Made by a program: the position numbers and the translations under genes
The notes under the pieces: model-generated
The model's database searches: none
The model's input: only the letters and a program-made list of their open reading frames with translations
What the model was told of the DNA's origin: nothing
Source of the DNA: Pedobacter psychrotolerans
GTDB lineage: Bacteria; Bacteroidota; Bacteroidia; Sphingobacteriales; Sphingobacteriaceae
Direction: 5' to 3'
Length of the DNA: 64,000 nucleotides
Assembly (NCBI RefSeq): GCF_004340665.1
Contig: NZ_SLWO01000004.1
Coordinates: forward strand, 310,001 to 374,000
Part shown: positions 1,816-26,685 of the stretch, in pieces
How the letters are laid out: every line of letters begins with the position of its first letter
Numbering within the stretch: position 1 is the stretch's first letter

Positions 1816-4296
1816 TTATTGTATTTTTAAACGCTCGTTTCCGTTGTCTTTTTCGCTGGATTTCCGGTTATTTAATGATTTTCCACCAAAATTATAGGTA
1901 AATGATAAACGCAGCTGGCGGTAATCCAAACTCCGTCTTTCTGTAGAATGGACGTTAAAATAATCATACTGATAATTGTATTTCATGGAATTTAAAAGAT
2001 CATAAACACTGAGTTTTACATTTGCTTTTTTATTCATCAGTAATTTCTGGACACCCAGGTTTAGATAGTAAATCTCTTCAAGCCGGTTTAAGCCAATTAA
2101 CTGAGGGGCATCATATTTAAACTGGCACTCTAACTTATAATTGTTTTTTAATGTAAACGTATGATTGGTGCTGAACCCAAACCCAAACAGGTGGCGATCG
2201 TAACTTTTCCCCATATAATCGGCAGCTTTGGTTTGATTAAAATACCCGTAGGCATTGTTATTCATGTTCCACCAGTTGGTTACAGTTACCGGTATATCAA
2301 GTGCTACCGATACATTACTTAATACATCCAGGTTGGTTACTGCAAAAATATTAATGTTTGTTTTTTCCTGTATCTCCTGGATACTCACTATGGGGTTTGA
2401 GGTTCTGCTGTAGCTAACTGAGAGCGAATAATTCTCTTTAAAGGTATCTGAAAAGCTATATACATTGGTATATTCTGGCTTCAGAGATGGATTTCCCTGC
2501 AAATAATAATACTGGTTAAAATAAATAAGGGTTGGGTCAAGGTCCTGATATGATGGTCTGCCAATCCGCCTGCTGGCAGATATTCTTAAATCATGGGCAT
2601 TAAATTTTTTATCGGCACTTACGCTCGGAAACAGGTTTGTGTAGTCATTTTTAATACGCAAACCCGAAGTAAAAAAATTTGCATCTGATGATGTTCCTTC
2701 CAAACGAAGCCCTGCATGCAGGTTATAACCATCAATTTTCTTGGATAAATTTAAATAGGCCGCGAGTAAATTCTCACTATAACTAAAACTGCTATTTTTA
2801 GCCGGAACATTTACAATAGCCCCGTTAATTATTGAATCGTAAATAAGGTCGTTTTCCTGCCTGATCCATCCTCCCTTTACCCCTGCTTCCAATTTTGTAG
2901 TTTTATTAAACGGAACGGTATAATCTATCCTGGCCACATTATTATTGACCAGAAAAGGAACATTGTTTCGGATGGAGTTGGGCATTTTCAATTCTCTTCC
3001 ATCGGGATAGTAATAGAAGTTATTACTTATGCGATCGTCGAAATTATCAAATTGTGAAAAGGTATAGTTGAATTCGATGTTGTGGCCTGTTTCTTTAAAT
3101 TTATGGTTGTAATAAAAGTTATAGGCTGTATTGGTTAGTTTTTTGAGATTGCTGGTCTGCGTACTGTAAACAGAATCAATTCTAAAGTTGCGGTCGCTAA
3201 TCAGGGTAACATCATCAATGGTGCGGTTGCGCTCGAAAATGTTAAGGTCGAATGTAAAACCCATCGCACTGGAATTGTTAATATCATAGTCTACCCCTAC
3301 CTTCGCCACCTGGTTATCAAACCTCGGTTTAAATTTCATTTCCTGCTGAAAATTTAATGGCACACTGGCATCAATAAACCGGTCTATTTTAAAATTAACC
3401 GATCTTTTCATTTTATTATAGCTGTAGGAACCAAATACATTAAATCGTCCTTTTTTTACATTAAGCATAAACGAACCCAGCAGATTTGGATAAATACCCT
3501 GATTGTAACCGGCAGAAGCTGATCCGTTAACCCCGGCCTGTGTATTCTTTTTAGTAATGATATTAATAATGCCACCCGCCCCTACAGCATCATATTTTGA
3601 ACTTGGATTGGTGATGATTTCTATTCTTGAAATGCTTCCGCTTGGCATATTCTGCAAGAGCGAAGAAAGTTCTGAAGCAGATAACGGGCTCACCTTATTA
3701 TCAATCATCACGCTCACTCCTGCCCTGCCATTTAACCTTATCTGTCCATCATCACCAGCCGATAAACCTGGTATCTGTTGCAGTAGTTCGTTGGCAGTGC
3801 TTCCATTCGTTAATACACTATTACCCACGTTCATAATTATTTTATCTGCCCTTCTTTCAATCAGGTTTTGCTTAGCTACAATTGTAACGTCGCCCAGGTT
3901 TTTTGTATCCTTATTCATCAGGATATTACCTATAACCAGCACTCCGCTATCAGGAAGTTTTAAAGATCTTTGGTATTGCAGGTAACTAAGGGCAGTAATC
4001 TCCAGGGAATAGTTACCCGGTTTAACAACAGGGATAGAAAACTTTCCGTCAGGGTCGGTTTGGGTTGCTGTTCCTAATTTAGGATCCTGATTTTTGATCC
4101 GTATGGTACAATAAGCAATTGGATTTTTTGTAATACTGTCTAAAACAGTTCCGCTAATGCGCGTTTGTGCATCAGATGAAATTGACATAAACAGGAGTAC
4201 GATTACAAAGAGGTAGAAGCCTGAATATGGCATTAGAAAGCGGTATGCTGTGTTGAAAGTTTTAAATTTAAAATATCTGTTTATTTTATTCTGCAT
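1816..4296 (-). CDS. TonB-dependent outer-membrane receptor with CarboxypepD_reg domain
   Basis: The product is about 826 residues. After a hydrophobic export segment ending near SSDAQ comes a carboxypeptidase-regulatory-like beta domain (ISGTVLDS onward). A plug region follows, with NELLQQIPGLS and the GAGGIINIITKKN plug motif, and then a long beta-barrel ending LRLSFTYNFGGK, typical of the outer membrane beta-barrel family. The C-terminus continues about 20 residues past the aromatic barrel strand. ATG at 4296 is preferred; a GTG at 4323 also lies in frame but directly abuts the upstream stop. The gene lies inside the NRPS operon between the SbnB-like gene and NRPS-3. It may take up the product or its metal complex, or serve in self-protection (inference). 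The substrate cannot be read from sequence. Confidence 0.88.
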   Translation of the reverse strand: MQNKINRYFKFKTFNTAYRFLMPYSGFYLFVIVLLFMSISSDAQTRISGTVLDSITKNPIAYCTIRIKNQDPKLGTATQTDPDGKFSIPVVKPGNYSLEITALSYLQYQRSLKLPDSGVLVIGNILMNKDTKNLGDVTIVAKQNLIERRADKIIMNVGNSVLTNGSTANELLQQIPGLSAGDDGQIRLNGRAGVSVMIDNKVSPLSASELSSLLQNMPSGSISRIEIITNPSSKYDAVGAGGIINIITKKNTQAGVNGSASAGYNQGIYPNLLGSFMLNVKKGRFNVFGSYSYNKMKRSVNFKIDRFIDASVPLNFQQEMKFKPRFDNQVAKVGVDYDINNSSAMGFTFDLNIFERNRTIDDVTLISDRNFRIDSVYSTQTSNLKKLTNTAYNFYYNHKFKETGHNIEFNYTFSQFDNFDDRISNNFYYYPDGRELKMPNSIRNNVPFLVNNNVARIDYTVPFNKTTKLEAGVKGGWIRQENDLIYDSIINGAIVNVPAKNSSFSYSENLLAAYLNLSKKIDGYNLHAGLRLEGTSSDANFFTSGLRIKNDYTNLFPSVSADKKFNAHDLRISASRRIGRPSYQDLDPTLIYFNQYYYLQGNPSLKPEYTNVYSFSDTFKENYSLSVSYSRTSNPIVSIQEIQEKTNINIFAVTNLDVLSNVSVALDIPVTVTNWWNMNNNAYGYFNQTKAADYMGKSYDRHLFGFGFSTNHTFTLKNNYKLECQFKYDAPQLIGLNRLEEIYYLNLGVQKLLMNKKANVKLSVYDLLNSMKYNYQYDYFNVHSTERRSLDYRQLRLSFTYNFGGKSLNNRKSSEKDNGNERLKIQ

Positions 4297-4323
4297 GTTT
4301 TTCTGTTTAATCTGCTGTTGCAC

Positions 4324-5295
4324 TTAATCTTCTAGTAATACTCCGGCATTTAGTTCCATTGCAAGATGGTAATACTCACTGGCTATGGCAATATCAAATA
4401 TAGCCATCCCCATAGGGTTAAACATAATGATATCATCGGGTTGCTTATTCTTCAACAGGTCTCCGCAAATTACCTCAGTAAGGGTTATGGTATCCTTTTG
4501 CTGCAAACCCGTTTTTAGGTGCATATTTTCAATATCAGTATTTTCACGGCACACTTCATCCCAATCATCAATAATGATCATGTCTACCCAACTTCTGTAT
4601 TCAGGCACATAATCGCGTAAAGATACGTTCAGCTGTAGCGAACCTTTTTTCGGAGGCAGATTGATATAAGGTTTTTTGGAAACCGTACAGGTTATAAATA
4701 TATCGGCGTTTTTATAGGCACTTTCCCAATCCCCGCAAACGGTAACATGCTCCCGCAGCCGGGCAGGTACCTTTTTCAGGTCTACGCCCTGCAAATCAAA
4801 CATACGGATTTCCAGTTCACGATTTCCTGTTATTCCGGCCAGCATTTGCAGATGCAGTTGCCCGATTGGTCCAAAACCAATTATTCCAATACAAATTTTG
4901 TCCTGTTCTGGCCTTTGCAAAAGGTAAGCATCAACCAGAACACCTGATACCGCAGCAGTACGAATACCGCTAACAAGAGCCGTATTAAAAATGCAGCGCG
5001 GAACGCCTGTTTCTGCTTCATTAAGAATGGTTACGGAATGTGCCCTCGCCAAACCTTTATCCAGATTACGCGGAAAACTTGCAATCCATTTAATACCCGC
5101 CGTGGCTATATTCCCACCAACATAGGCAGGCATGGCTATAATCCTGTTAGATAGGTCCGAATAACGCAAATATGGTTTTACGGGCTGTACAACGTCCTGA
5201 TCTCTTAAAATATATAGGGTATTCCTGATTACATCCAATAGCTGATGCCAGTTGATGCCAATTTTTTCTAATTCCTTTTTGTTCAGATATAACAT
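4324..5295 (-). CDS. SbnB-like N-(2-amino-2-carboxyethyl)-L-glutamate dehydrogenase (2,3-diaminopropionate synthesis)
   Basis: The 323-residue protein belongs to the ornithine cyclodeaminase/mu-crystallin family. The N-terminal half has RIIAMPAYVGG and GIKWIASFP (Lys69 region), the latter closely resembling SbnB. A Rossmann motif GFGPIGQLH lies near residue 140, and a conserved GIRTAAVS segment precedes it. In staphyloferrin B and related pathways SbnB oxidises the SbnA product to L-2,3-diaminopropionate (Dap) and 2-oxoglutarate. No SbnA-like PLP enzyme is visible in the window, so the partner should lie beyond the left edge or elsewhere. The gene sits 25 bases after the sulfotransferase gene. 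Lysine or ornithine cyclodeaminase function is a weaker alternative, because the IASFP region fits SbnB better. Confidence 0.8.
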   Translation of the reverse strand: MLYLNKKELEKIGINWHQLLDVIRNTLYILRDQDVVQPVKPYLRYSDLSNRIIAMPAYVGGNIATAGIKWIASFPRNLDKGLARAHSVTILNEAETGVPRCIFNTALVSGIRTAAVSGVLVDAYLLQRPEQDKICIGIIGFGPIGQLHLQMLAGITGNRELEIRMFDLQGVDLKKVPARLREHVTVCGDWESAYKNADIFITCTVSKKPYINLPPKKGSLQLNVSLRDYVPEYRSWVDMIIIDDWDEVCRENTDIENMHLKTGLQQKDTITLTEVICGDLLKNKQPDDIIMFNPMGMAIFDIAIASEYYHLAMELNAGVLLED

Positions 5296-5320
5296 TTTTG
5301 TTTTTATAAAAAATAGATAA

Positions 5321-6184
5321 TTATCGGGTTAACTTAATGTAAAAATCCCAGAGTGTAAATCCCAGATTACCTGTATACGGGCGGCTAATTTTTTCGATTA
5401 TACGGTTGTATTTTCTAAATTTCTCCAGATCACGCTGAAATGCAGGTCCTTTATTGTTGATGATCTGATTAAATTGCTCTACAGCAAACGCATAGAGTTC
5501 GATATCATATTGGTTGGCTTTTTCGATGAGTGCTAAAGCACGGGCTGAGATTTGATTCCGGCCTGGTTTATTTTCAATGGTATTGAGCGCGGTATAAAAC
5601 GGATAATTCCAGCCGAATTGCTGCTGAAGCAATAACAACGTTTCATCAAATCTTTCAGTAATGCCAAAAATTTTATAATGGGTGATGAGGTTATGTTTAG
5701 CCGTTTCCAACATATTACGGTCGCATTTTTCATGGCTTTTGAGCTGGATACCGGAAATTTGCCGGGTTTGTATATTATCAAGCTCTGCACTTAAGCCACT
5801 GTCAGCAAATCCTTCGAGCTTCATTTTATTGCTCATCAGGATATTGTGCAAATAATGCCCCGGTAGTTTTAAGATGTAGTAGTAATAGGAAATCACCCTT
5901 TCTACAGGATCACGAAGTAAGGTAATATAGGTATAATCCTTATAATACTCATGAATTCCGTAACTGGTATGCCCTTGCAGCAATTTCATTTGCATTTGTC
6001 GGTTTTCCGGCATCTTGCTGAATTCGGCCAAAGCTTCATCAGTATTACCCGATTTTTCTCTTACATAGAAAAAAAACTGATCCTCTTTTTTGTATTGGCG
6101 CCCCATCACCGAAACCAATGTTGTACCTCCACTGCGTGGCACATGTGTAAAAATAATAGGGTACTGATTAATTGAGTTAAACAT
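5321..6184 (-). CDS. PAPS-dependent sulfotransferase-family protein
   Basis: The 287-residue protein has the two sulfotransferase nucleotide-binding signatures. The 5'-phosphosulfate loop THVPRSGGTTL lies at about residues 13-23, and the 3'-phosphate motif LRDPVERVISYYY at about 90-102. Length and motifs fit the Sulfotransfer_2 group, which also includes heparan and natural-product sulfotransferases. It lies between NRPS-2 and the SbnB-like gene with gaps of about 30 and 25 bases, so it is almost certainly a tailoring enzyme of this pathway. Candidate acceptors are the Tyr phenol, the glyceryl hydroxyl, or the side-chain amine of a Dap residue, as SulN does in sulfazecin biosynthesis. The last is attractive because Dap synthesis is encoded next door, but sequence alone cannot decide. 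Confidence 0.85.
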   Translation of the reverse strand: MFNSINQYPIIFTHVPRSGGTTLVSVMGRQYKKEDQFFFYVREKSGNTDEALAEFSKMPENRQMQMKLLQGHTSYGIHEYYKDYTYITLLRDPVERVISYYYYILKLPGHYLHNILMSNKMKLEGFADSGLSAELDNIQTRQISGIQLKSHEKCDRNMLETAKHNLITHYKIFGITERFDETLLLLQQQFGWNYPFYTALNTIENKPGRNQISARALALIEKANQYDIELYAFAVEQFNQIINNKGPAFQRDLEKFRKYNRIIEKISRPYTGNLGFTLWDFYIKLTR

Positions 6185-6215
6185 ATGGGATGATGAATGA
6201 TATTATGATGTGTAC

Positions 6216-9200
6216 TTATTCAGGTTGGACTACGGCCAGGGCATACCTGCCTTGTATACCTGTTTCAATCCACTGGGTGCGTTCCAAAAACTGCTTAAAA
6301 GGCGTATTCTTTGCAGTAGGTATAAATTTTGCAACCAGCTGGCTTAATCCCTGTTGAGCAGCATCAGTATGCAGGAAACGGAGTACAATATCTTCTACTC
6401 CCCTTCCAAGAACCCTGCAGCTAAGCATGAAATTTTCGAGCAACAATGAGTTCCCGTCTACACGCGAAATAATAAGACCTGCCAAGCCATAATTCCCGAA
6501 ACGATCTTCTACATGGATTATTCTATTAAAGCTATCAGGCGCATTAATAATTTGCTGTACCTCTTTCGATGTTCGTTGTAAACCATTCATATTAAACTGA
6601 TTGGTTCGCTGTATAAGTTGCACCGCACGCTCTGTTTCTGCATTAGTTAAGGACAGCATGTTTACCTTAATGTTTAATGAGGCTATAAAACCGGCTAGCG
6701 AGTCGCTTTTAGTTTGCACATCGTTTCTCTCTTTTTCAGCCTTGTACCTATCATTGCGTTCCAGGTCTTCTTCTGTAAGGTAAAAGCGGTCAAAAGCCCA
6801 GTTATGCAATAAAAAATCAGTCATATCTGCAGGGTCTTCCGGAATAACCATGGCCAGTACCTCAGGACATCTGGCCGTTACCTGCTCTACCTCAAACTCG
6901 CTGTCATCAAGAAAGATAAAGCTGTCGGTTCCTAAATTCAATTCGTGGGCAATTGATTTTAAATTATCTGGTTTATGTTCCCAGTTTATTCTATGCGTAA
7001 TAATATGCGAGCGCTGTAGCACCATTTGCGGATGATGATCGAAAACGTTCCATACGTCGGCCTCGTTATTTTTACTGGCCAGTACAATTAAAAATCCCTC
7101 ATGGTATTTCTCTACCAAAAAACGTTGCAAAGCAGCGTATTGACCATCTATTTTTATTCCATCTAAACCTGCCTCCCCAACAATTCCCTTCCATAAAGTG
7201 TGGTCGCAATCTACCGCTATTACTTTATAGGGAGCAGTTTTCCAGGCATATATTTTTCTGACCAGGAATGTACCTAAAGCAGCATAATATTCTGGTGTAA
7301 AAGTGATATGGCCAATGTTATCAGCCCCATTATCAAATATTTCATCAACCTCATAAAGTTCGGTAACACCATTCATATCTAGCAGGTAACAACCGGTAAG
7401 GCTGGTAAAAAAATCTGTAAGCAATTGGCAAAGTTTGTTAATGGTATTGATCACTTCTATGTCATAATTACTGGAAGCTGAGGCAGGTACCACACCAACG
7501 AAACAAGGTGATAACATGCTATTTCTGCTATGGCTAAATGCAGCTAGCAACTCATTATAAGTTTTTTCCAGCAGGGCTGACTGATCTTTGGAGTTTAATG
7601 TGGGTTGATCACGTAACCAGTCTTCGGGACGTATAAATACAATATTTAGACCTTCATTTTTGCAGAGTATGCTATTTTCGTCATACAATTGCTGAAATAC
7701 CTGGTTATAGGGCGCAAAATCAATTTTTAAGCCCAGATCAACTTCTTTACCCCAGTATTCCATATATTCTTTAAGCGGATCGGCTACAAAGGATGAACAG
7801 ATGGTAATGCTTAGTTCGCTTTGCTGCGGTAATTCAGATGGTTCGGCAACCCACGGAAAATAAGCAGATAATGGCTGTGATGGATGGGCAATAATATCTT
7901 CCAGTAAATCAGTATACCGGGTTAGAAAAGTTGCCATACGTGGCTCTTTAAAAAGTGCTTTATTATACGTGAAGTACAGCTTTATCTCATTTCCTAGCGG
8001 ATATATATCCAATTTAAAATCTAACACAGCATGAACCTCGCTGTTTTGATCTTTGATATAAGGACTCATCCTGATGCCTGTATCTCCAGTTGACAGATCA
8101 CGGCCTGTAATGGATGTTTCGGAGTGAAAATTAACCATCGTATCAAAAAAAGGATTGCGTGCCCTATCACGTTCTGATAAACAATCGTCTACCATTAGGT
8201 CAAATGGATAATCCTGGTGCAGGTAAGCATTTACCAGTGTTTGATGGATAAAACGAAGGTAATCATCCAACTGATCGTTCTTATTGGCAGTGATGCGTAC
8301 CGGCAGGAAATTGATAAACACACCAAGCATATTTTCCAAGTCGATATGACTTCTGCCTGAAACAAGAGAGCCTATTACCAGGTCCTGCTGATCGGTATAA
8401 TGTGCCAGCAACATTCCATATAATGCAAACAACAGGTTATTTAAAGTAGTATTGCGTTCTAAAGCGAATGCTTTAAGCCTATCGGTTAATTCTGCAGACA
8501 ATTCGTGAACCAGTGACCCGCCAGAAAAAGATAATACTTCCGGACGCTCAAAATCGGCCGGAAACCGGAGCACAGGAATGTTGTTCTGATACAGATCATT
8601 CCAGTATTTACCTTGCGATTGGTAAATGCCGGTATGCCAGGCCGCATAATCCCGGTATTGTAAGGTAAGCGGTGATAATGCCTTTCCAATTCCGGTAGCA
8701 TAAAAACGATAGAGGTGCAACAGCTCCCGGGTAAGTATATTTCTCGACCATCCGTCGCTTACAATGTGATGGATATTAAAAAGGAAAATATATTTTTCTT
8801 CTGCCACCCTAACAAGTGTAGCCCGCAGCAGGGGGCCTTTTGATAAATTAAATGGCGCATGCATATCTTCGGTGATCATCTTTTCGATCACCTCAGCCGA
8901 ATTTGCTGTATGCCCCAAATCTTTTTCGTTTAGCAAAAAGTTAATGTCGGCAGGTGGTAAAATGAGCTGGCGGGGCGCTCCGTTAACCGTAATAAATACG
9001 GTTCTCAGACTCTCGTGCCTGGCAATCAGTTTTTCCAGTACATATTTAAATTTCGCTGTATCCAGCTTACCTTCCAACAAAGTTGCACTGGGGACATTAT
9101 AAGCGGCATTGCCTTCTTCAAACTGACTAAGCACCCACAAACGCTGCTGCGCATGCGATAATTGAAAATCTTCTTTTTCGGCTAATGCAGGTATTTCAGA

Positions 9201-12200
9201 AAACTGCTGTTCGGTTGCTCCAGGTATTAATTTTGCCAAAAGGTTAACCGTAGGGTAAGCAAAAATTTTACCTATATCAAGTTTTACGTTAAAGTGCTTG
9301 TGTATATGCGAAGTGAGCTGTATCGCTTTAAGACTATGCCCTCCCAGATCAAAGAAATTATCCGTAATGCCGATGCGGGTTTTACCCAGCACAGCTTCCC
9401 AAAGTGTAATCATTTCTTCTTCAATGCGGTTACTTGGAAGCACATATGCTGTTTCATTACCAGCATCTACTGCCGGAAGTGATTTTACATCGATTTTTCC
9501 GTTGGCAGTTATGGGAAGGCTCTTCATCGGAACAAAGTAGCTGGGAATGAATGCATCCGGAAGAAATTCATTAAGAAAATCACGGAGCTGCTTTGGTGAA
9601 ACCGGAACATTGCTTTCGTAATAAGCCGCGAGTTCCTTACCAAAAACATCATTTTCAATGGCAATTACTGCAACCCGATTAATGTCTTCATACCGCAATA
9701 GTGCATTTCTTACCTCATTTAATTCGATCCGGTAGCCACGTATTTTTACCTGGTCATCTTTTCTTCCTTTAAAAACAATTGTTCCGGAAAGTGTCCAGCA
9801 GGCCTGATCACCGGTTTTATACATAATCGAACCCGGTTTCCTGGGATGATCAGTAAATTTCTCCCTGGTCAGTTCATCATTATTCAGGTACCCTGAAGCC
9901 AAACCTGCGCCAGAAATACAAAGTTCTCCGGCAACACCCGGAACAGCATAATGGCCATGCTCATCTAAAATAGAAACAAAACTGTTTGCAATGGGATAAC
10001 CGATTACCGGATGGGTAGCGTAGGAATCGATCTTGTTGTTATCAATCAGTATGGCGATAGTGCCAATGGTGGTTTCTGTAGGCCCATAGTGATTGGCCAG
10101 TTGGACAGATGGTTTAATGCTGATCATTTTTTTCAGATCAGGTACACGTATCGGTTCGCCACCCATAATAACTAAACGCAGTGCACTATCTGTAAAAAGA
10201 TCGGCATTGGTAGCGCTAACCAGCAGTTGAAAAAGGGATGGTGTTGTTTTTAAAAAAGTAATTTTTTCATCTGCAATATATTGTACCATTACCCCGGGAT
10301 TTCTAATCAAATTATCGGGAATAAGGTGTAAACAGCCTCCGCCCAAAAGCATGCCCCATACACTTGTATAACCAAGATCGAAAGCATAAGAAGAGAGCAA
10401 TACCGCACTGTCTTTTTCTGTAACTTCAAAGTAAGCCCGGAGCCAGCTCACATAATTGACCAGGGATTGATCAGAGATTAAAACACTTTTTGGCTTTCCT
10501 GTTGTACCTGAAGTGTAAATGACGTAAACCACAGCATCTGTTTTTCGTACAGGGAAATGAGCTGCTACCTGATTTTCATTTAAAATGAGCTCGTCAATCC
10601 ATACGGTATCTATTTTATCATCCAGCATATTGCCCAAACTACTGTGGCTAAGTAATACTTTGGCAGAACTATCTTCCAGGATAAAAAGGGTGCGGCTAAC
10701 AGGACTTCGAGGATCAATTGGTACGAAAGCAGCACCTGCTTTTATGATCCCCAGCATCCCAACAATCATGTGTTCATTTTCTTCACATAACAACCCTATG
10801 CGGTCGCCCGGCCTGATTGATTTTTCTTTAATCAGATAATCCGTCAATCTGTTGGCTTTATTGGATAATTCAGCATATGAAATTCGTTTATCCCCTGCAA
10901 CCACAGCAATTGCTTCAGGATATCGTGCCGCTGCTTTATCGAACATTTCATCAACAGTGTAGGACGAAGCAGGAAATACCTGGTGATGAGGATTGAATGA
11001 TTCCATCATGTCATCCAGTAACGAAGCCGGGAGCAGCTGCAAGTTGTTTAACCGAATGGTAGTATCCGAAAAGCATTGTGCTGTAATGTTGCTGTACACT
11101 TCTGCCAGCAATTGAATACTTTCTTTACTGAAGGCATTTTTATTATAAATAAATTCCAGATTCAACGCTCCGTTTTCATTAATACACCTTAGCTGGATTT
11201 TTTTAGCTTCAACAAGGGTTTCGCGGTTCAAAACCTCAATTAAACCATCATTAATTACCTGATTATGGATGCTTAATGGCGAATTTATAAATTCAAACAC
11301 ATAAGAATATGTAGCATCTGGCCTGCCCGAAACTTCGTGTAAGAGCTTATATTCACCATTAGTTTCTATCATATCGCGATATGCTTCGAGGCAGAAGGCA
11401 AAAGACGTGTTTTCATCAATGGCCAGCGATATCGGTAAACAAAAGGAAAGCAATCCCATTATATCGTGAAGTTCTTCAAAATCACGGCCATTGTTAATAT
11501 GCTGTGTAATGATATCCTGTTTACCGCAGAAATTCCAGATTAACCATTGCCAGCAAACGCCCAGCCGAGCCTCTAAATCCTCATCAGCATGAGTTGAAGG
11601 GGGAAGCTGAAGGGCATACACACCGGGATCGAACACTGCGGTGTTTAAAGGATCTTCATCAAAAATCATTGCCGACATCTGGGCAATAAAACTATTTTTT
11701 TTCCAGTAAGTAATTCCATCTTCGTTTTCTTCGGCTTCGAGAAGTTGATTCTGCCATTCGGAGAACTGAAGATAGGGCAAAGCTTCTTCTGGTGTGGCAG
11801 TTGCATCATTCCCTGCCAAATAGCCCGCTATTAATTGATTTGCCAATACGTTAATGCTGTAAAAATCTGCACACAGCGCAGGGGTAGTCATCAGGATATG
11901 ATTAACTTCATCCGGGCCATTTACCACATCAAGCCGTACAAGCGGCCCGTTTTCAAGATCAAAAACCTGTTTCGAAGCAATTTTAATTATTTTACTTAAT
12001 GCATCCGGGTTAGTTATCATATGCTCACCAAAAATAAAGTCAGCAAAATCGTTAATAACCTGCACCGGCCATTCAATTCCGGCAGGCTTGATGTAAGTGG
12101 TGCGGAATATGCTGTATCGGTTGATAATTGCGCTCAAAGAACTTTTAAGCCTTTCCGGCTCAAGCACTCCTGTAATCTTAATGGTTACTTGGGTATATGG

Positions 12201-12275
12201 AATATGATGGTCCTTATACTTTTTAAAAAAATGTTGCTGCTGTGGCGATAAGCGGTAATAAGATAGCTGTTCCAT
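6216..12275 (-). CDS. NRPS-2: interface-like C, A (Asp-type), PCP, C, FkbH-like glyceryl-loading domain
   Basis: The protein has 2,019 residues. Residues 1-430 have the condensation fold, but the catalytic HHxxxDG is replaced by PALCADF (132-138). Residues 440-940 are an adenylation domain (YTSGTTGKPK at 587) whose pocket reads DLTKIGHIGK, near the Asp code. A carrier follows with GGHSL (Ser981), then a second C domain with intact HHIVSDG (1169-1175). Residues about 1490-2015 are an FkbH-like HAD domain (DCDHTLWKG at 1689) with a C-terminal acyltransferase-like lobe. FkbH proteins move the glyceryl group of 1,3-bisphosphoglycerate to a carrier. The protein has no carrier after FkbH; NRPS-3 begins with one. 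The degenerate first C matches the idea of an interface domain that recruits an Asp beta-hydroxylase, and the TauD gene lies 5 bases upstream. Confidence 0.93.
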   Translation of the reverse strand: MEQLSYYRLSPQQQHFFKKYKDHHIPYTQVTIKITGVLEPERLKSSLSAIINRYSIFRTTYIKPAGIEWPVQVINDFADFIFGEHMITNPDALSKIIKIASKQVFDLENGPLVRLDVVNGPDEVNHILMTTPALCADFYSINVLANQLIAGYLAGNDATATPEEALPYLQFSEWQNQLLEAEENEDGITYWKKNSFIAQMSAMIFDEDPLNTAVFDPGVYALQLPPSTHADEDLEARLGVCWQWLIWNFCGKQDIITQHINNGRDFEELHDIMGLLSFCLPISLAIDENTSFAFCLEAYRDMIETNGEYKLLHEVSGRPDATYSYVFEFINSPLSIHNQVINDGLIEVLNRETLVEAKKIQLRCINENGALNLEFIYNKNAFSKESIQLLAEVYSNITAQCFSDTTIRLNNLQLLPASLLDDMMESFNPHHQVFPASSYTVDEMFDKAAARYPEAIAVVAGDKRISYAELSNKANRLTDYLIKEKSIRPGDRIGLLCEENEHMIVGMLGIIKAGAAFVPIDPRSPVSRTLFILEDSSAKVLLSHSSLGNMLDDKIDTVWIDELILNENQVAAHFPVRKTDAVVYVIYTSGTTGKPKSVLISDQSLVNYVSWLRAYFEVTEKDSAVLLSSYAFDLGYTSVWGMLLGGGCLHLIPDNLIRNPGVMVQYIADEKITFLKTTPSLFQLLVSATNADLFTDSALRLVIMGGEPIRVPDLKKMISIKPSVQLANHYGPTETTIGTIAILIDNNKIDSYATHPVIGYPIANSFVSILDEHGHYAVPGVAGELCISGAGLASGYLNNDELTREKFTDHPRKPGSIMYKTGDQACWTLSGTIVFKGRKDDQVKIRGYRIELNEVRNALLRYEDINRVAVIAIENDVFGKELAAYYESNVPVSPKQLRDFLNEFLPDAFIPSYFVPMKSLPITANGKIDVKSLPAVDAGNETAYVLPSNRIEEEMITLWEAVLGKTRIGITDNFFDLGGHSLKAIQLTSHIHKHFNVKLDIGKIFAYPTVNLLAKLIPGATEQQFSEIPALAEKEDFQLSHAQQRLWVLSQFEEGNAAYNVPSATLLEGKLDTAKFKYVLEKLIARHESLRTVFITVNGAPRQLILPPADINFLLNEKDLGHTANSAEVIEKMITEDMHAPFNLSKGPLLRATLVRVAEEKYIFLFNIHHIVSDGWSRNILTRELLHLYRFYATGIGKALSPLTLQYRDYAAWHTGIYQSQGKYWNDLYQNNIPVLRFPADFERPEVLSFSGGSLVHELSAELTDRLKAFALERNTTLNNLLFALYGMLLAHYTDQQDLVIGSLVSGRSHIDLENMLGVFINFLPVRITANKNDQLDDYLRFIHQTLVNAYLHQDYPFDLMVDDCLSERDRARNPFFDTMVNFHSETSITGRDLSTGDTGIRMSPYIKDQNSEVHAVLDFKLDIYPLGNEIKLYFTYNKALFKEPRMATFLTRYTDLLEDIIAHPSQPLSAYFPWVAEPSELPQQSELSITICSSFVADPLKEYMEYWGKEVDLGLKIDFAPYNQVFQQLYDENSILCKNEGLNIVFIRPEDWLRDQPTLNSKDQSALLEKTYNELLAAFSHSRNSMLSPCFVGVVPASASSNYDIEVINTINKLCQLLTDFFTSLTGCYLLDMNGVTELYEVDEIFDNGADNIGHITFTPEYYAALGTFLVRKIYAWKTAPYKVIAVDCDHTLWKGIVGEAGLDGIKIDGQYAALQRFLVEKYHEGFLIVLASKNNEADVWNVFDHHPQMVLQRSHIITHRINWEHKPDNLKSIAHELNLGTDSFIFLDDSEFEVEQVTARCPEVLAMVIPEDPADMTDFLLHNWAFDRFYLTEEDLERNDRYKAEKERNDVQTKSDSLAGFIASLNIKVNMLSLTNAETERAVQLIQRTNQFNMNGLQRTSKEVQQIINAPDSFNRIIHVEDRFGNYGLAGLIISRVDGNSLLLENFMLSCRVLGRGVEDIVLRFLHTDAAQQGLSQLVAKFIPTAKNTPFKQFLERTQWIETGIQGRYALAVVQPE

Positions 12276-12280
12276 AATAA

Positions 12281-14134
12281 TTATTTCAACTGTTCGGGTT
12301 TTAGCAAAGAAAAGTCAGTGTACACCCGTTCTACTTTCCGTAATAAAGCATTAAATTCTATAGCAAGACCAAAATCATTCCCGATCCAGTCGCGTGTTAA
12401 TCTGGCAGTTTCCCCATCAATAAGTTTTATATCCTGAGTTTGCATGGCCAGCATATTTAAACGATAAGCCCTTTCTGCCGCTACCATTCTGATTACAGCA
12501 GATTCTATATTGGCACCGCAGGTTATAGTGCCGTGATTGCGGAGCACAATCATATCCTTACCTTTTAAAGCCGCAGCAAGCTGCATCGCCTCTTCAGTGT
12601 CGTTTACCGGACCACCAAAATGCCCGTATAATTCATGATTCTCAAAAAAAAGGCAGCAATTTTGATCTATGGGTTTTATATACCGATCGAGCGCACTAAA
12701 AAGTGTTCCCCATGGAGAATGGGTGTGTACTACGCAATTTACCTGGGGATAATGGTTGTGGATAGCCGCGTGGATACAGAATCCGGCAACATTAACCGGA
12801 TAATCTCCTTCAATCACCTCACCATTTTTATCAACTTTAATCAGGTTTTTTGCGGTTATTTCCTCCGCCAGCATACCAAAAGGATTTACCCAAAAACAAT
12901 CCGACTCCCCGGGTACACGCATACTGATGTGCCCGCTGATACCGCCCTCATCCAGCCCTTCGGTAACCATCACTCGGTAAGCAGCGGCGAGTTTATACTT
13001 TAATATACTATGGTCTGTATCATGGCTTGCATGATTGATAAAAAATTGTGCTGTAGCATGGCGGGTATTATTTACAACTTTGCTGTTTAACTGTTCTTCT
13101 ACAGGTTTGTAATGATAAGGATCGGCCATGGCTACAAGTACCTTTCGCGTTCCCTCGAAAGGTTCGCGCCCATGCGCAAAAAGTAAATTATCCAGCATAA
13201 TTACATCCGATGCCTTCCAGTCAAATTTAAATTGTGCCCTCCTGTAAGCTTCTCTTATTTCTTCCAGGTAAGCAATTGGAATGGGCGAACCATCGCCAAA
13301 AAAGGTATTTCTGGGCAGATGATCAAAGCCGCACTGCTCAATCAGGTAATCCTGAACGGCAGGAGCCTGACTAGAGATATGGAAAAGATGTGCCTGATTA
13401 AACCATACCCATTCTTTACTTTCCGGATGTTGAATAACAGCCTGGCACACCTGCCTGGTTCTTAAAGCATTATGCTCTTTCCATTCAAAGGTTATATTTT
13501 TTTTGCGGAAATATTTTTCTGCATCTTCTTTGCTTTCAGTTTGATAAACCTCCTGCCAGGGCAGGTCTAGTTCGTTACCGAAATTACGCACATACATTAC
13601 CCCTTTTTTTATAAATTCATTGCGCAAGCTTTCACTAAGGCCTGCAAATACCTTTCGGCTATCTGCCAGCGGTGTTGCACCGCCAACCTCGGCGGGTTTT
13701 ACGCTATAAAACCAAATTTTTTGAGGCCAATCGTTGCTGTAAGAATGTTCATTGTGCATGGGAATATGTTCCTCTTTCGGATATTCTGTTGAGGTATATA
13801 CTTTTTCAGCCACCTGCCTACGGGGTGTAGAAGGTTCAGAATAGTCCATAAGCTCATTCGATAATTTCCGTGTAAATGAGTTGAATGCGGCATCATCATT
13901 AACGTTGAAACCACGGAATAATACGGCTCCGTAGCGTTTATAGGCATCGTCAATACTGCTTTTATTTACTGTTGCCCACGCATTTAAATCAAGCCGCTCC
14001 CCTGTTTCAAACATTGCCAGTTCTCCGTTTCCTGTGTTAAGAAATGATAATCTGACTGTGGTAAGGGGATCAATTTTAATGGATTGAGGCTGAGTATTCA
14101 TGAGCCCTTTTAAGGCATCCTGCTTTAATTTCAT
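12281..14134 (-). CDS. TauD/TfdA-type Fe(II)/2-oxoglutarate dioxygenase fused to class II aldolase/adducin domain
   Basis: The protein has 617 residues. Residues about 25-340 are TauD/SyrP-like, with iron ligands HNE (127-129) and the distal His in AHGR (321), plus EVGGATPLADSR, typical of this family. Residues about 360-600 are a class II aldolase/adducin domain with the metal-binding HTH (470-472) and RNHG (534). The acidic residue used by fuculose-phosphate aldolase is not visible at the expected place (AGFCIH is present instead), as in the adducin-like subgroup. The dioxygenase is expected to beta-hydroxylate carrier-bound Asp, since an Asp-type A domain follows at once in NRPS-2. The aldolase half could act on the hydroxylated residue or on a separate precursor; its reaction is unknown. 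A single frame covers both domains with no sign of frameshift. Confidence 0.87.
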   Translation of the reverse strand: MKLKQDALKGLMNTQPQSIKIDPLTTVRLSFLNTGNGELAMFETGERLDLNAWATVNKSSIDDAYKRYGAVLFRGFNVNDDAAFNSFTRKLSNELMDYSEPSTPRRQVAEKVYTSTEYPKEEHIPMHNEHSYSNDWPQKIWFYSVKPAEVGGATPLADSRKVFAGLSESLRNEFIKKGVMYVRNFGNELDLPWQEVYQTESKEDAEKYFRKKNITFEWKEHNALRTRQVCQAVIQHPESKEWVWFNQAHLFHISSQAPAVQDYLIEQCGFDHLPRNTFFGDGSPIPIAYLEEIREAYRRAQFKFDWKASDVIMLDNLLFAHGREPFEGTRKVLVAMADPYHYKPVEEQLNSKVVNNTRHATAQFFINHASHDTDHSILKYKLAAAYRVMVTEGLDEGGISGHISMRVPGESDCFWVNPFGMLAEEITAKNLIKVDKNGEVIEGDYPVNVAGFCIHAAIHNHYPQVNCVVHTHSPWGTLFSALDRYIKPIDQNCCLFFENHELYGHFGGPVNDTEEAMQLAAALKGKDMIVLRNHGTITCGANIESAVIRMVAAERAYRLNMLAMQTQDIKLIDGETARLTRDWIGNDFGLAIEFNALLRKVERVYTDFSLLKPEQLK

Positions 14135-21662: not shown

Positions 21663-23438
21663 TCATTTTTCTTCAAAAACATATACACATTCCAGGATGG
21701 TGTCTAAAACGCTATTTTCCAGTTCAGCATTTAATTTAAATCCGCAGGTATACGCCAGTTCGTGAGAAATTTTTCTGTATAATTCTACCTCTCCTACCAG
21801 CGACTGAAACATGGTATTGATATCAGAATGAGGAAAATTCCGTAGCAACCCGACATAAAATTCAGGATCGCACCACTGCTGTATTTTTTTGGCCTGAGGA
21901 TAAATATTTTTCACTGGATGATGAATTGCTGCATGCCACTCCATCATTTTAATTAATTGATTTTTCATTGAATTATCCAGAACAACAATGGCATAGTAAA
22001 AATCTTGACGCATCAGTTTTGCTGCCATTTTATTTGCCGTATGCCAAAATCTTTTATAATTGTTATAAAACCGTTTTGCATCAGCCTGGCCGGCTAAAAA
22101 ATGTTTCGGAGCATCCTGGTACCGGTGTAAAATGGTTTCCAAAATCTCCTCTTTAGCATGGATCAATTCAAAGCCATTATTTAATATCTGGTCAAAATTC
22201 TGTTGAAAATGGTTGTCATTTTTAGTAAGATGTAAGTTATTAATCACATTTACATTAATGCAGCATCCATTTTTTAAAAGAATATTTACCACAACACCAA
22301 AAGCACCCTCAGCGTTTGACAGGCTTAAATTGTCTTTAAAAGATTTACGCCAAGTATCGTGGTTGGTGTACTTATAACAGTTTGTCGTAATTAAAAAACA
22401 ATCTATTTCCAAAAGGCTTCCATCCTTGCTACATAACCCATTATCGGAAATGAAAATTGCATCAATATCATCTTCACCTTCAGGCAATTTATATAGCGGA
22501 ATGGTGATTTCTTTTAAATCGGTAACTGTTCCTATCAGTTGTTTCTCCATAAAGGCATTGTACACCTGTTTTTCAAGTAACCTGTTTGGATTAAATTCTT
22601 TTTTAAGTGCTATATGATTAGATAACTTGATATAAATTTGCATGGTTTGCAAAACTGCGTCTCTTACCTCATCTTCGCCGGCATTTGGAAAAACGTTAAA
22701 TAGCGCTAAGTATAGTTTCGGATCACACCACTGTTTCAGTTTGGCACCATAATAAAATACATCTAAATTTTTATCGTTAGTTTCGAGCAAAGTGTACCAC
22801 TGGATAAGCAGGATCAAGTTTCGTTTCAGAATATTGTCTACCATAATGTTGGCATAGGCCAGTTCGTTCCCAATTAACCAGGTATTCATTTTATAACAAT
22901 TTTGCCAAAACTGGTTCCAAAGCCCGTTAAACCGCTCTTCGTTCAAAATCATATCCTTATCTTCACTCCCTGCCTCGTGTTTAAATACAAGATTTATAAT
23001 TTCCTGAATATCGATAGTATCAAAAACAATCTGGTATCCCCTTTTCAGGTAATAATGAAAATCATAAATATGGTTGTTGATTAACCGGATTAAATTTTCG
23101 GGCAGTTGTAAGGGCGTTTCCGCCAAATAATTCTTTACTTGAGTAAATTCTTTAACATCAACAATTAACAAATCCAGGGCAGGACCATCTTTCATGATTA
23201 ATTTGTTAACTTTCATGTGCGCTACGATATCTTTTACAACCAATCTTGAAATCACTTCGCCAAGCTCATCTACCCATTCTAAATCAGCATCGTTAATATA
23301 TTTTAACGGATCAGAAGTAAATATAATCAGATCTAAATCTGAGTATTTATCGCTACTGGTTAAAGCGGCCGATCCAAAAGCAATAATCGATTTTATATCA
23401 TCGCTTTTGTTTCCAAATAATTTAAATCTATCAATCAT
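21663..23438 (-). CDS. Tandem-duplicated ANT(6)/AadK-like nucleotidyltransferase
   Basis: The 591-residue protein starts with a nucleotidyltransferase domain bearing the metal and nucleotide motif FGSAALTSSDKYSDLDLIIF (about 21-40). A helical region with WCDPKLYLALFNVFP follows, as in streptomycin 6-adenylyltransferases. The second half repeats this plan: a weakened copy with SDNGLCSKDGSLLEIDCFLI, then a helical part with WCDPEFYVGLLRNFP. The second copy has lost the GS and DxD residues, so only the first copy is likely catalytic. Its start codon lies 2 bases beyond the exporter stop, so the two are translationally linked. It may modify the peptide for self-protection or tailoring, or act on tRNA or an aminoglycoside-like substrate. 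The target is unknown. Confidence 0.75.
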   Translation of the reverse strand: MIDRFKLFGNKSDDIKSIIAFGSAALTSSDKYSDLDLIIFTSDPLKYINDADLEWVDELGEVISRLVVKDIVAHMKVNKLIMKDGPALDLLIVDVKEFTQVKNYLAETPLQLPENLIRLINNHIYDFHYYLKRGYQIVFDTIDIQEIINLVFKHEAGSEDKDMILNEERFNGLWNQFWQNCYKMNTWLIGNELAYANIMVDNILKRNLILLIQWYTLLETNDKNLDVFYYGAKLKQWCDPKLYLALFNVFPNAGEDEVRDAVLQTMQIYIKLSNHIALKKEFNPNRLLEKQVYNAFMEKQLIGTVTDLKEITIPLYKLPEGEDDIDAIFISDNGLCSKDGSLLEIDCFLITTNCYKYTNHDTWRKSFKDNLSLSNAEGAFGVVVNILLKNGCCINVNVINNLHLTKNDNHFQQNFDQILNNGFELIHAKEEILETILHRYQDAPKHFLAGQADAKRFYNNYKRFWHTANKMAAKLMRQDFYYAIVVLDNSMKNQLIKMMEWHAAIHHPVKNIYPQAKKIQQWCDPEFYVGLLRNFPHSDINTMFQSLVGEVELYRKISHELAYTCGFKLNAELENSVLDTILECVYVFEEK

Positions 23439-23440
23439 AT

Positions 23441-25096
23441 TTATAAATTAACAGGGATATTCCATAGTTCATCAGCCTCCAATGAATGGCTTTTCAGGTC
23501 TATATCTTTAACAACCTGGCCGTAATCAAATTTAATAATGCGATCTGCATGTTTAAAGTAAGCATCATCGTGTGTAACTGCGATAATGGTTTTTCCTTGT
23601 TCTCTTAATTTAATCAGCATTTCCTCGTAAAAATATTTTCTAAAGTGCGGGTCCTGGTCTGCCGCCCATTCATCCAGTACCAGTATTGGGCGTTCTTCCA
23701 GTAAGGCAAAAATCATTGCCATCCGTTTGGTTTGCCCCTTAGAAAACTTTCTTCTCGCTGCAGCATCATCAATACCTGATACTACGGTATCGAGTTCCAT
23801 CGTTTCTAATAAGGCTTTATATACCGCGTTATTTTCAAGTTTATATCCTTCATAATTTGCAGAAAAGAGATGAGGTTCGGAATAAACAGCAGAAATATGG
23901 TTTCTGTAATATTGAGAATCATTGCCCACCCTTTTCCCGTTAAAAAAAATATTTCCCGAGGTGGGATGATAAATACCGGTAAGCAAATTGATAAAAGTAC
24001 TTTTACCACTTCCATTTCCACCAATTACAAAAATAAACTCCCCTTTTTTAATTGTCAGGTTGATTTCTTTTATCGCGAATCCATCACCAGATAAAGCAGA
24101 TTTATATTGATAAGAAACCTGATCAAATACGATTTCATTTAACCCTTCTGGGTGAGTTGTTAATGACTCTGCAACATTTGAAACAGGGAGATCTTTAATG
24201 TCTTTCAAAAAGGTAGCAATTCTTTTATTTGCTACAAACGCCCTGTTAAAGAACCCTTGGAGCGCCATTAAACTATTTATTGGTCCGCGTATAAAAAGAA
24301 GAATAATTACAAATGTAGTTACCTCTTGCTTGTTCAGCATTCCAGTTCGCGGAAGGATAAATATTACAATGCCAATAAGTAAGTACAGGCCATATTGACT
24401 AAAAAGATTAATAACAGACATCAGTCCGGATACCCTGGTTTCTATTTTATTAACGGATAACCTGTTCGGGCGTAGATAATTTTCCCTGATACCTGTTCTT
24501 CTGATCATACTTAACTTAAATTCTCTAAAGCCTTTAAGAATATCATCAACAATTGCAAAATAACTATTATTAAGCTCTTTAAGCCTATCCATACTATGCT
24601 TTACTTTTATATTTACGGCATAATAAACTGACGAAATCACCATAATCAGTGTAATGATAAAAATGGCAGATGGAAGCGAAACAACCAGAAAATAGATTAA
24701 ACAGATAAACAATGTCATTAACGATGTAATAGCAGTATTGATGATGCCCGGTAAAAAAACGAGCACCCGAAGGTCTTCTATTATACTGTAAATTCTTTGT
24801 AAACCAATTTCTTCCAGGTGATGCATACTAGCCTTCTGGAAATTTTCCATAATATGCAGTTCACTTTCATAAATAAGCTTATTTGAAAAAACAATAATTT
24901 TCTTTTGAAAAAATATATTCAGTAAAAAAGAAAATATAACAAGTGAGAAAAAGTATATATCCAGGTTACCATAAATAGCTAACATTTTGCCTGATACAAT
25001 ATAATTTACCATAGTTAATATACCGAGAGTAAGTATTGTATTTGGAATTGAAAAAGCCACCAAAAACAAAATACTCTTTACTGAAATTCTGAACAT
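23441..25096 (-). CDS. Cyclic-peptide-type ABC exporter (PvdE/SyrD family)
   Basis: The 551-residue protein is a half-transporter with a permease and an ATPase fused. About six membrane segments occupy residues 1-290. The ATPase has Walker A GGNGSGKST (359-367), an atypical signature FSKGQ (451-455) and Walker B ILVLDEWAADQDP (471-483). DEWAADQDP is a hallmark of the PvdE/SyrD group, which exports siderophore precursors and lipopeptides to the periplasm. Its place between the type II thioesterase and the biosynthetic genes supports export of the NRPS product or an intermediate across the inner membrane. Some members also work with periplasmic maturation enzymes, but none is seen here. Confidence 0.9.
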   Translation of the reverse strand: MFRISVKSILFLVAFSIPNTILTLGILTMVNYIVSGKMLAIYGNLDIYFFSLVIFSFLLNIFFQKKIIVFSNKLIYESELHIMENFQKASMHHLEEIGLQRIYSIIEDLRVLVFLPGIINTAITSLMTLFICLIYFLVVSLPSAIFIITLIMVISSVYYAVNIKVKHSMDRLKELNNSYFAIVDDILKGFREFKLSMIRRTGIRENYLRPNRLSVNKIETRVSGLMSVINLFSQYGLYLLIGIVIFILPRTGMLNKQEVTTFVIILLFIRGPINSLMALQGFFNRAFVANKRIATFLKDIKDLPVSNVAESLTTHPEGLNEIVFDQVSYQYKSALSGDGFAIKEINLTIKKGEFIFVIGGNGSGKSTFINLLTGIYHPTSGNIFFNGKRVGNDSQYYRNHISAVYSEPHLFSANYEGYKLENNAVYKALLETMELDTVVSGIDDAAARRKFSKGQTKRMAMIFALLEERPILVLDEWAADQDPHFRKYFYEEMLIKLREQGKTIIAVTHDDAYFKHADRIIKFDYGQVVKDIDLKSHSLEADELWNIPVNL

Positions 25097-25379: not shown

Positions 25380-26093
25380 TCAGTACTGAAGGCTTTCTGC
25401 TACTCTAAAGTTCATTAGTTTGATTAATTGTTCCATGTGCTCCTGGTGGAAGAAATGTCCGCCGTTAAAATGATAGATACTGCATAAACCGGAAGTATGT
25501 TTTTTCCAGCTATCGCATTGGTCAGCAGAAAACTCATCACTTTTACCAAGAAAAACAGTAATTGGAAAAGGCAGTGGCCGAATGCTTTCCTGAACATCGT
25601 GTGTTTCTACAATCTTAAAATCATTTCTTAAAAGCGGAAGAAATATATCCAAAAAATCTGCGCTGTTAAACAATTCCGGAGATGTACCTCCAAGTTCTAA
25701 AATGGAAGCCTTAAACTCACTTTCGCTTAACAAATGATATTTTTTTTTCCTGTCTGCAAGGTGCGGAGCGCGACAACCCGAGAAGAAAGCATGAATTGGT
25801 ATTTGGTTATTGCTATTTACCAGTTTCTGGATAACTTCATAGGCTATCATCGCACCCATACTATGACCAAACAATACATATGGTAACCCATTTATTTTTT
25901 TTTTAATCAGGTGATATGCGTCATCCACTGCTGCTGATAAATTTGGGTAAAAGCTATCGTTTATACGCGTACCTCTACCAGCAAGCTCAAGCGGAATTAT
26001 TTCAATAGAGGGATGTAAATATGGTTTCCAATTGTAATAAGCCAATGATGACCCACCCGCGAATGGCAAACAGAATAACTGAATTTTATTCAT
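25380..26093 (-). CDS. Type II thioesterase (GrsT-like)
   Basis: The product is about 237 residues and has the alpha/beta-hydrolase fold of stand-alone NRPS editing thioesterases. It starts LFCLPFAGGSS, carries the nucleophile elbow GHSMGA (near residues 76-81) and has candidate catalytic Asp and His in LGKSDEFSADQ and FNGGHFFHQEH. The ATG at 26093 is preferred over an upstream in-frame TTG because FCLPFAGG normally lies within the first 20 residues. The role is to clear misloaded or stalled acyl groups from carriers, keeping the assembly line working. A 283-base AT-rich gap separates it from the exporter gene; I see no gene in that gap. Confidence 0.9.
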   Translation of the reverse strand: MNKIQLFCLPFAGGSSLAYYNWKPYLHPSIEIIPLELAGRGTRINDSFYPNLSAAVDDAYHLIKKKINGLPYVLFGHSMGAMIAYEVIQKLVNSNNQIPIHAFFSGCRAPHLADRKKKYHLLSESEFKASILELGGTSPELFNSADFLDIFLPLLRNDFKIVETHDVQESIRPLPFPITVFLGKSDEFSADQCDSWKKHTSGLCSIYHFNGGHFFHQEHMEQLIKLMNFRVAESLQY

Positions 26094-26156
26094 AAAGAAC
26101 TTAATTGTTAACAATTGTATAGTTTGGAAGATTAGATTTTATGAGATAAAAAAGAT

Positions 26157-26260
26157 TAAAGTTCTCGTTTTAGTTAGCAATATTCTAAGCAGACAACATA
26201 TCTTGTGAAAAATTTACAAGGAGACTTCTATTTAACAAATTAACCCTAACGAGAACTTTA
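26157..26260. repeat. 13-base perfect inverted repeat spanning the nusG-paralogue 3' end
   Basis: TAAAGTTCTCGTT at 26157-26169 is the exact reverse complement of the segment at 26248-26260. The 78 bases between hold the last codons of the NusG paralogue. The arms lie between the antiterminator and the thioesterase start at 26093. They could form a long-range RNA stem in the operon transcript. There is no U-run, so it is not a standard terminator. Function is unknown; a recruitment or attenuation element is possible. Confidence 0.4.
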
Positions 26261-26685
26261 TTTTTCCCTTTATGGTTAACTACCTCACAACCTAGCCCAT
26301 TAAATGAACCTTTACTTATTGTAATCTTCATTCCTGGTGAAAATTTTTCATTTGAAACCTCGAAGTTATCTACTTCCTTCAATGCTAAATTGATATTTTC
26401 AATTACAGAATTTCTAACTATTGCCAACTTTTTACCTGTTTTAATGTAGCTTATAAATCCCCTAGCTTTTGATGAACTATAAAACTGAAGGTAGTTTTTT
26501 AATTTTACAAATACGTACGATGGAAATAGAGGATATTCTATCACTTTAATTCTGTCCTTCCATTTTCTTTTTTCATTAGTTATGGGCAAATAGATTTCAA
26601 TTCCCATAAAACCCAAGTCTTTTACCAAATTTTTCTCTTGTTTTGGTTTTGTATAAATAATATACCAACCGACTTCAAAGCTCAT
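26185..26685 (-). CDS. UpxY-type NusG paralogue (transcription antiterminator)
   Basis: The 166-residue protein starts with the NGN-domain signature GWYIIYTKPKQEKN, then LFPSYVFVKL. The C-terminal KOW-like part has FSPGMKITISKGSFNGLGCEV. Length and motifs fit UpxY proteins, which act on single capsule operons in Bacteroides, or LoaP-like proteins in Firmicutes. As the first gene of a same-strand run of about 26 kb with very large NRPS genes, it likely binds RNA polymerase at the operon leader and prevents early termination (inference). Decayed polysaccharide genes lie about 1.3 kb away across a divergent regulator, which suggests the regulator may come from a capsule locus. Confidence 0.88.
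   Translation of the reverse strand: MSFEVGWYIIYTKPKQEKNLVKDLGFMGIEIYLPITNEKRKWKDRIKVIEYPLFPSYVFVKLKNYLQFYSSSKARGFISYIKTGKKLAIVRNSVIENINLALKEVDNFEVSNEKFSPGMKITISKGSFNGLGCEVVNHKGKNKVLVRVNLLNRSLLVNFSQDMLSA

Follow-up and report, generated by a model that had tools for sequence, protein, structure and literature searches.

Does the pairing of a gene for L-2,3-diaminopropionate (Dap) synthesis with a sulfotransferase gene, inside an NRPS operon of Pedobacter psychrotolerans, reflect a monobactam-like pathway? The window, meaning the whole 64,000-nucleotide stretch of DNA that was analyzed, is C4:310001-374000 (C4 being contig NZ_SLWO01000004.1) of a 5.19 Mb genome. As the original prediction had stated, the SbnB-like and sulfotransferase genes (4324-5295 and 5321-6184) are adjacent on the minus strand of one operon, which extends from 26685 leftwards across base 1, as far as about C4:285177, with every gene on that strand and intergenic gaps that are mostly 0-130 bp and at most 471 bp. 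With the operon crossing the window edge, the genome sequence left of base 1 was retrieved, and the gene set came to about 50 kb in total. Its features are as follows, in window coordinates unless marked C4; those marked C4 lie left of base 1.

26185-26685, minus: UpxY-family antiterminator, at the operon head
25380-26114, minus: type II thioesterase
23441-25096, minus: peptide exporter ABC permease/ATPase (PvdE/SyrD type)
21663-23438, minus: double ANT(6)/AadS-like nucleotidyltransferase, 591 aa
14169-21191, minus: NRPS-1, partial C-A(Tyr)-T-C-A(Asp)-T-C
12281-14134, minus: fusion of a TauD-type Fe/2OG oxygenase and a class II aldolase-like domain, possible Asp beta-hydroxylase
6216-12275, minus: NRPS-2, degenerate C (lacking HHxxxDG)-A(Asp)-T-C-FkbH (glyceryl loading)
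5321-6184, minus: SulN-like PAPS-dependent sulfotransferase, motifs PRSGGTT and RDPVERVIS
4324-5295, minus: SbnB-like dehydrogenase, Dap synthesis step 2
1816-4323, minus: TonB-dependent outer-membrane beta-barrel (OMP_b-brl_3, plug); most relatives of the cluster have a gene of this kind
1-1686, minus: NRPS-3, N-terminal part; whole gene C4:299180-311686, 4168 aa, T(glyceryl acceptor)-C-A(Gly)-T-C-A(Ser)-nMT-T-C-A(Ala)-T-E
C4:295197-299168, minus: terminal NRPS, C-A-T-TE, 1323 aa
C4:294168-295172, minus: SbnA (TIGR03945, 385 bits; cut-off, 350)
C4:293572-294150, minus: APS kinase
C4:291842-293548, minus: NodU-type carbamoyltransferase
C4:290403-291791, minus: FAD/NAD(P)-binding oxidoreductase
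C4:285941-290398, minus: C-A-T-C NRPS (Gly module), 1485 aa
C4:285177-285830, minus: phosphopantetheinyl transferase
C4:283801-285012 (L004:8801-10012), beside the phosphopantetheinyl transferase: Dap ammonia-lyase (NF006058, 498 bits)

The Dap ammonia-lyase was considered as a pathway member and rejected; homologs occur in 2 of 27 other genomes of the genus, and around one of these homologs no NRPS was seen. Immediately left of the cluster lies a DNA polymerase III alpha-like gene (L004:5742-8767), apparently in broken pieces.

Terminal module, Dap supply and sulfotransferase

The gene set is very probably a monobactam biosynthetic gene cluster. A monobactam-like pathway had been expected to bring with it, left of base 1, an SbnA-like gene, a Dap-type A domain and a C-terminal thioesterase (TE) of the SulM type, and the presence of all three there supports it. 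Searched against the PDB, the TE gave its best matches to the SulM didomain (8w2d, 9e-59) and SulM TE (8w2c, 8e-41), followed by ObiF1 (5e-31). It carries the Gln-Cys-Asn (QCN) nucleophile motif (IIIYGQCNGAG), as well as an Asp at position II and a His (in GDRDP and GHFMWRD) that align with SulTE Asp2926 and His2956. Two of the three positive positions on the sulfamate side are retained, equivalents of Arg2849 (ALPRT) and Arg2858 (DRTD) being conserved. These features agree with those used by Patel et al. 2024 (PMC11298585) to mine genomes for SulM-type, beta-lactam-forming thioesterases. Structural modeling was done on the TE of [Flexibacter] sp. ATCC 35208, a stand-in that is about 72-73% identical to the window-genome TE; the AlphaFold model (pLDDT 75) best matched 8w2c (7e-23), with ObiF1 (8e-13) as the next match outside SulM. 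The last A domain is predicted to be Dap-type, with the code DIWEVTADDK compared with DVWEMNADDK for Dap in SulM and DIWEITADDK in ATCC 35208.

Both genes for Dap supply, SbnA and SbnB, were found in the cluster. The SbnB-like gene encodes an OCD/mu-crystallin protein (PF02423, 8e-32) that is 70% identical to its ATCC 35208 counterpart and for which SbnB itself (TIGR03944, 1.5e-94) was the best NCBIfam model; its 316.7 bits fall about 10 bits short of the curated cut-off of 326.9, which counts against the monobactam reading. The arrangement of SbnB, sulfotransferase and NRPS genes recurs in ATCC 35208, so that this neighborhood is not a product of chance.

The sulfotransferase (PF03567, 1.1e-13) is the sole copy in the genome. 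We ranked it by similarity against nine sulfotransferases from clusters, SulN included, and 15 others: all cluster members, including SulN, came above all 15 others, the cluster set again came first when SulN was the query, and HS2ST lay far below. The closest proteins were those of the TE-matched clusters described below, closeness to SulN was reciprocal, and the window protein was nearer to SulN than to any sampled Sulfotransfer_2 protein outside such clusters. Long branches dominated the trees in which remote members of the phylum were included, and a trimmed, still weak and long-branched tree left a SulN group neither rejected nor proved (p-AU 0.17). Because of these long branches, assignment of the enzyme to the SulN kind rests on ranked similarity and gene neighborhood; the expectation that it would side with SulN and not with O-sulfotransferases holds in the ranking, although the long branches of the tree leave it short of proof.

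Assembly line and proposed pathway

A-domain codes were read from a multiple alignment with PheA; other extractions were set aside, as motif anchoring misplaced residues and pairwise alignment misread some. The substrate names and the PheA reference sequence are those we take to be the published ones.

1485-aa NRPS: Gly, DILQLGMIWK
NRPS-1, first: Tyr, DASTIAAVCK
NRPS-1, second: Asp, DLTKIGHIGK
NRPS-2: Asp, DLTKIGHIGK
NRPS-3, first: Gly, DILQLGVVWK
NRPS-3, second, with N-methyltransferase: Ser, DVWHISLVDK
NRPS-3, third, followed by the E domain: Ala, DLFNNALTYK
Terminal module: Dap, DIWEVTADDK

NRPS-2 ends in an FkbH domain (TIGR01686, 278 bits; cut-off, 147). Its first C domain (10985-12275) lacks HHxxxDG in all four homologs (the window, ATCC 35208 and two Flavobacterium-type relatives); it may be where the TauD enzyme docks. 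In the TauD fusion, which is kept in relatives, the aldolase-like domain is similar to TqaM and NovR among PDB structures, and one or both Asp residues are possibly beta-hydroxylated by this enzyme. The predicted chain is (Gly)-Tyr-Asp-Asp-glyceryl-Gly-N-Me-Ser-D-Ala-Dap, closed to an N-sulfo beta-lactam; the module order at the front is deduced, and the bracketed Gly, from the 1485-aa NRPS, is placed there only tentatively. A Dap module after the glyceryl carrier had been said to fit, and one does follow it, but not directly, the Gly, N-Me-Ser and D-Ala modules lying between.

From the genes present, their domain order and the codes and motifs that they carry, we infer all of the chemistry, including the site of sulfonation. 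SbnA and SbnB would make Dap, and the NRPS line would build a peptide ending in D-Ala-Dap behind earlier units of Tyr, two Asp, D-glyceryl (loaded by FkbH and probably ester-linked), Gly and N-methyl-Ser. While Dap is still bound to the last carrier, its side-chain nitrogen would be sulfonated by the SulN-like enzyme, with PAPS that the operon's own APS kinase can supply. Attack of the sulfonated nitrogen on the thioester held by the terminal Cys thioesterase would then release the N-sulfo-beta-lactam, while the separate Gly module and the carbamoyltransferase probably modify the front end. No beta-lactamase for self-resistance was found among the scanned cluster proteins, which counts against the monobactam reading; a search of the genome gave just two weak matches, both on other contigs.

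Related clusters

An earlier scan with the whole terminal NRPS, whose patterns were poorly conserved, returned no match, and the TE alignment was then used. This pattern-limited contig profile scan, covering one genome for each of 84,980 species, found six loci in four genomes: one in ATCC 35208, two in [Flexibacter] sp. ATCC 35103, two in Flavobacterium sp. Leaf82, and that of the sulfazecin producer, the positive control. At strong E-values the TE was present in none of 58 other relatives, in the window's own genome only among about 395 sampled from the class, and in no other genome among 395 sampled from the phylum; since the Flavobacterium-type positives fall outside the class and phylum samples, this sampling shows rarity only.

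The nearest cluster found is that of the known producer strain ATCC 35208 (contig NZ_MTKN01000034.1), making the mention of Flexibacter in the original prediction apt. GenBank KY502195, whose title names a monobactam cluster, is cited for ATCC 35208 in PMC9248904, the text of which says ATCC 35103. Orthologues about 40-79% identical (minimum 39.5%; TE, 72-73%) have an identical arrangement in the core: TauD-aldolase, FkbH-NRPS, sulfotransferase, SbnB, TonB barrel and a 4150-aa NRPS (58% identical to NRPS-3 over the full length), then C-A(Dap)-T-TE, SbnA, APS kinase, carbamoyltransferase and oxidoreductase. The clusters differ in the position of the ABC gene and at one front module, where ATCC 35208 has Val and the window cluster Tyr. 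In addition, the ATCC 35208 homologs nearest to the Gly module and the double nucleotidyltransferase belong to a PKS/NRPS locus of a different contig, where the Gly-module homolog adjoins a double nucleotidyltransferase and an exporter that both resemble window genes.

With the sulfazecin cluster (SulM/SulN, Paraburkholderia acidicola ATCC 31363) the window cluster shares the order of domains in its final two modules, A(Ala)-T-E-C-A(Dap)-T-TE, the QCN thioesterase (32% identical) and the adjacent sulfotransferase (36%). Its assembly line is, however, far longer, with glyceryl, N-Me-Ser and Asp units. In a comparison that bears on sulfazecin-type 3-methoxylation (an oxygenase and a methyltransferase next to SulN), no window-cluster protein matched the remaining proteins of the 20 kb sulfazecin stretch. 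The Leaf82 and ATCC 35103 clusters likewise have a SulM-type TE, a Dap-type last A domain and a SulN-like sulfotransferase, and FkbH together with the TauD-aldolase fusion occurs in one of these clusters, but their TEs are just 36-41% identical to the window TE and their peptide codes differ. The Leaf82 cluster had been predicted by Patel et al. 2024 (PMC11298585); within its NRPS operon lies a Beta-lactamase2 gene (L038:1314-2201; PF13354, 1.3e-23), likely a self-resistance gene, and its presence in a related operon favors the monobactam reading. ATCC 35103 and Leaf82 also have a third sulfotransferase-NRPS locus (L036:473-3250, L043:4704-7481), in which the TE carries GHCKG instead of QCN; the L036 operon encodes a pyruvate kinase-ATP sulfurylase-APS kinase fusion.

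Alternative products and significance

Two other products deserve weighing. SbnA/SbnB, the pair of Asp modules together with the TauD oxygenase, and the TonB-dependent barrel in the operon would also suit a siderophore or metallophore, in which Dap and beta-hydroxy-Asp bind iron (compare staphyloferrin B and cupriachelin) and the TonB receptor imports the complex. Scans of the cluster proteins (Pfam for all scanned, NCBIfam for part) nevertheless revealed no NIS synthetase and no catechol or clear hydroxamate genes, nor a clear siderophore receptor: the barrel is OMP_b-brl_3, and its siderophore-receptor match is marginal. As such a product would also leave the sulfotransferase, APS kinase and QCN thioesterase unexplained, we regard it as highly improbable.

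A peptide sulfated on Tyr or another oxygen, released by the TE as a macrocycle, linear acid or beta-lactone and not as a beta-lactam, appears very unlikely as well. A Tyr module that could accept the sulfate is present, and among solved structures the sulfotransferase has only O-sulfotransferases as relatives (HS2ST, 1.4e-10), yet the enzyme is far nearer SulN than HS2ST, and ATCC 35208, with the same sulfotransferase and TE, has Val in place of Tyr. As to release, ObiF1, the obafluorin synthetase, shares with the window TE a Cys thioesterase, Asp at position II and the four-membered ring formation that is proposed for the latter, and it makes a beta-lactone; it lacks QCN and a sulfotransferase step, however, and the window TE is clearly closer to SulM. 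Among the TE domains compared by Patel et al. 2024 (PMC11298585), Gln-Cys-Asn was reported in SulTE only, and Dap, the predicted final residue, has an amine that favors a lactam.

It is conceivable, though improbable, that the peptide is both a monobactam and a chelator, with two beta-hydroxy-Asp residues binding iron and the operon's TonB barrel handling the complex; if so, it would parallel in nature the "Trojan horse" drugs, which are synthetic siderophore-monobactams.

To our knowledge, very few monobactam gene clusters are known. The kind of cluster described here is not new, and the locus appears to be a rare new member for which a different peptide is predicted, with Tyr replacing the Val of ATCC 35208. 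A second, diverged cluster of the ATCC 35208 type allows the conserved parts (FkbH glyceryl, N-Me-Ser, D-Ala-Dap and TauD-aldolase) to be compared, and this comparison could show how long-peptide monobactams are made, exported and, with no obvious beta-lactamase in the cluster, tolerated.
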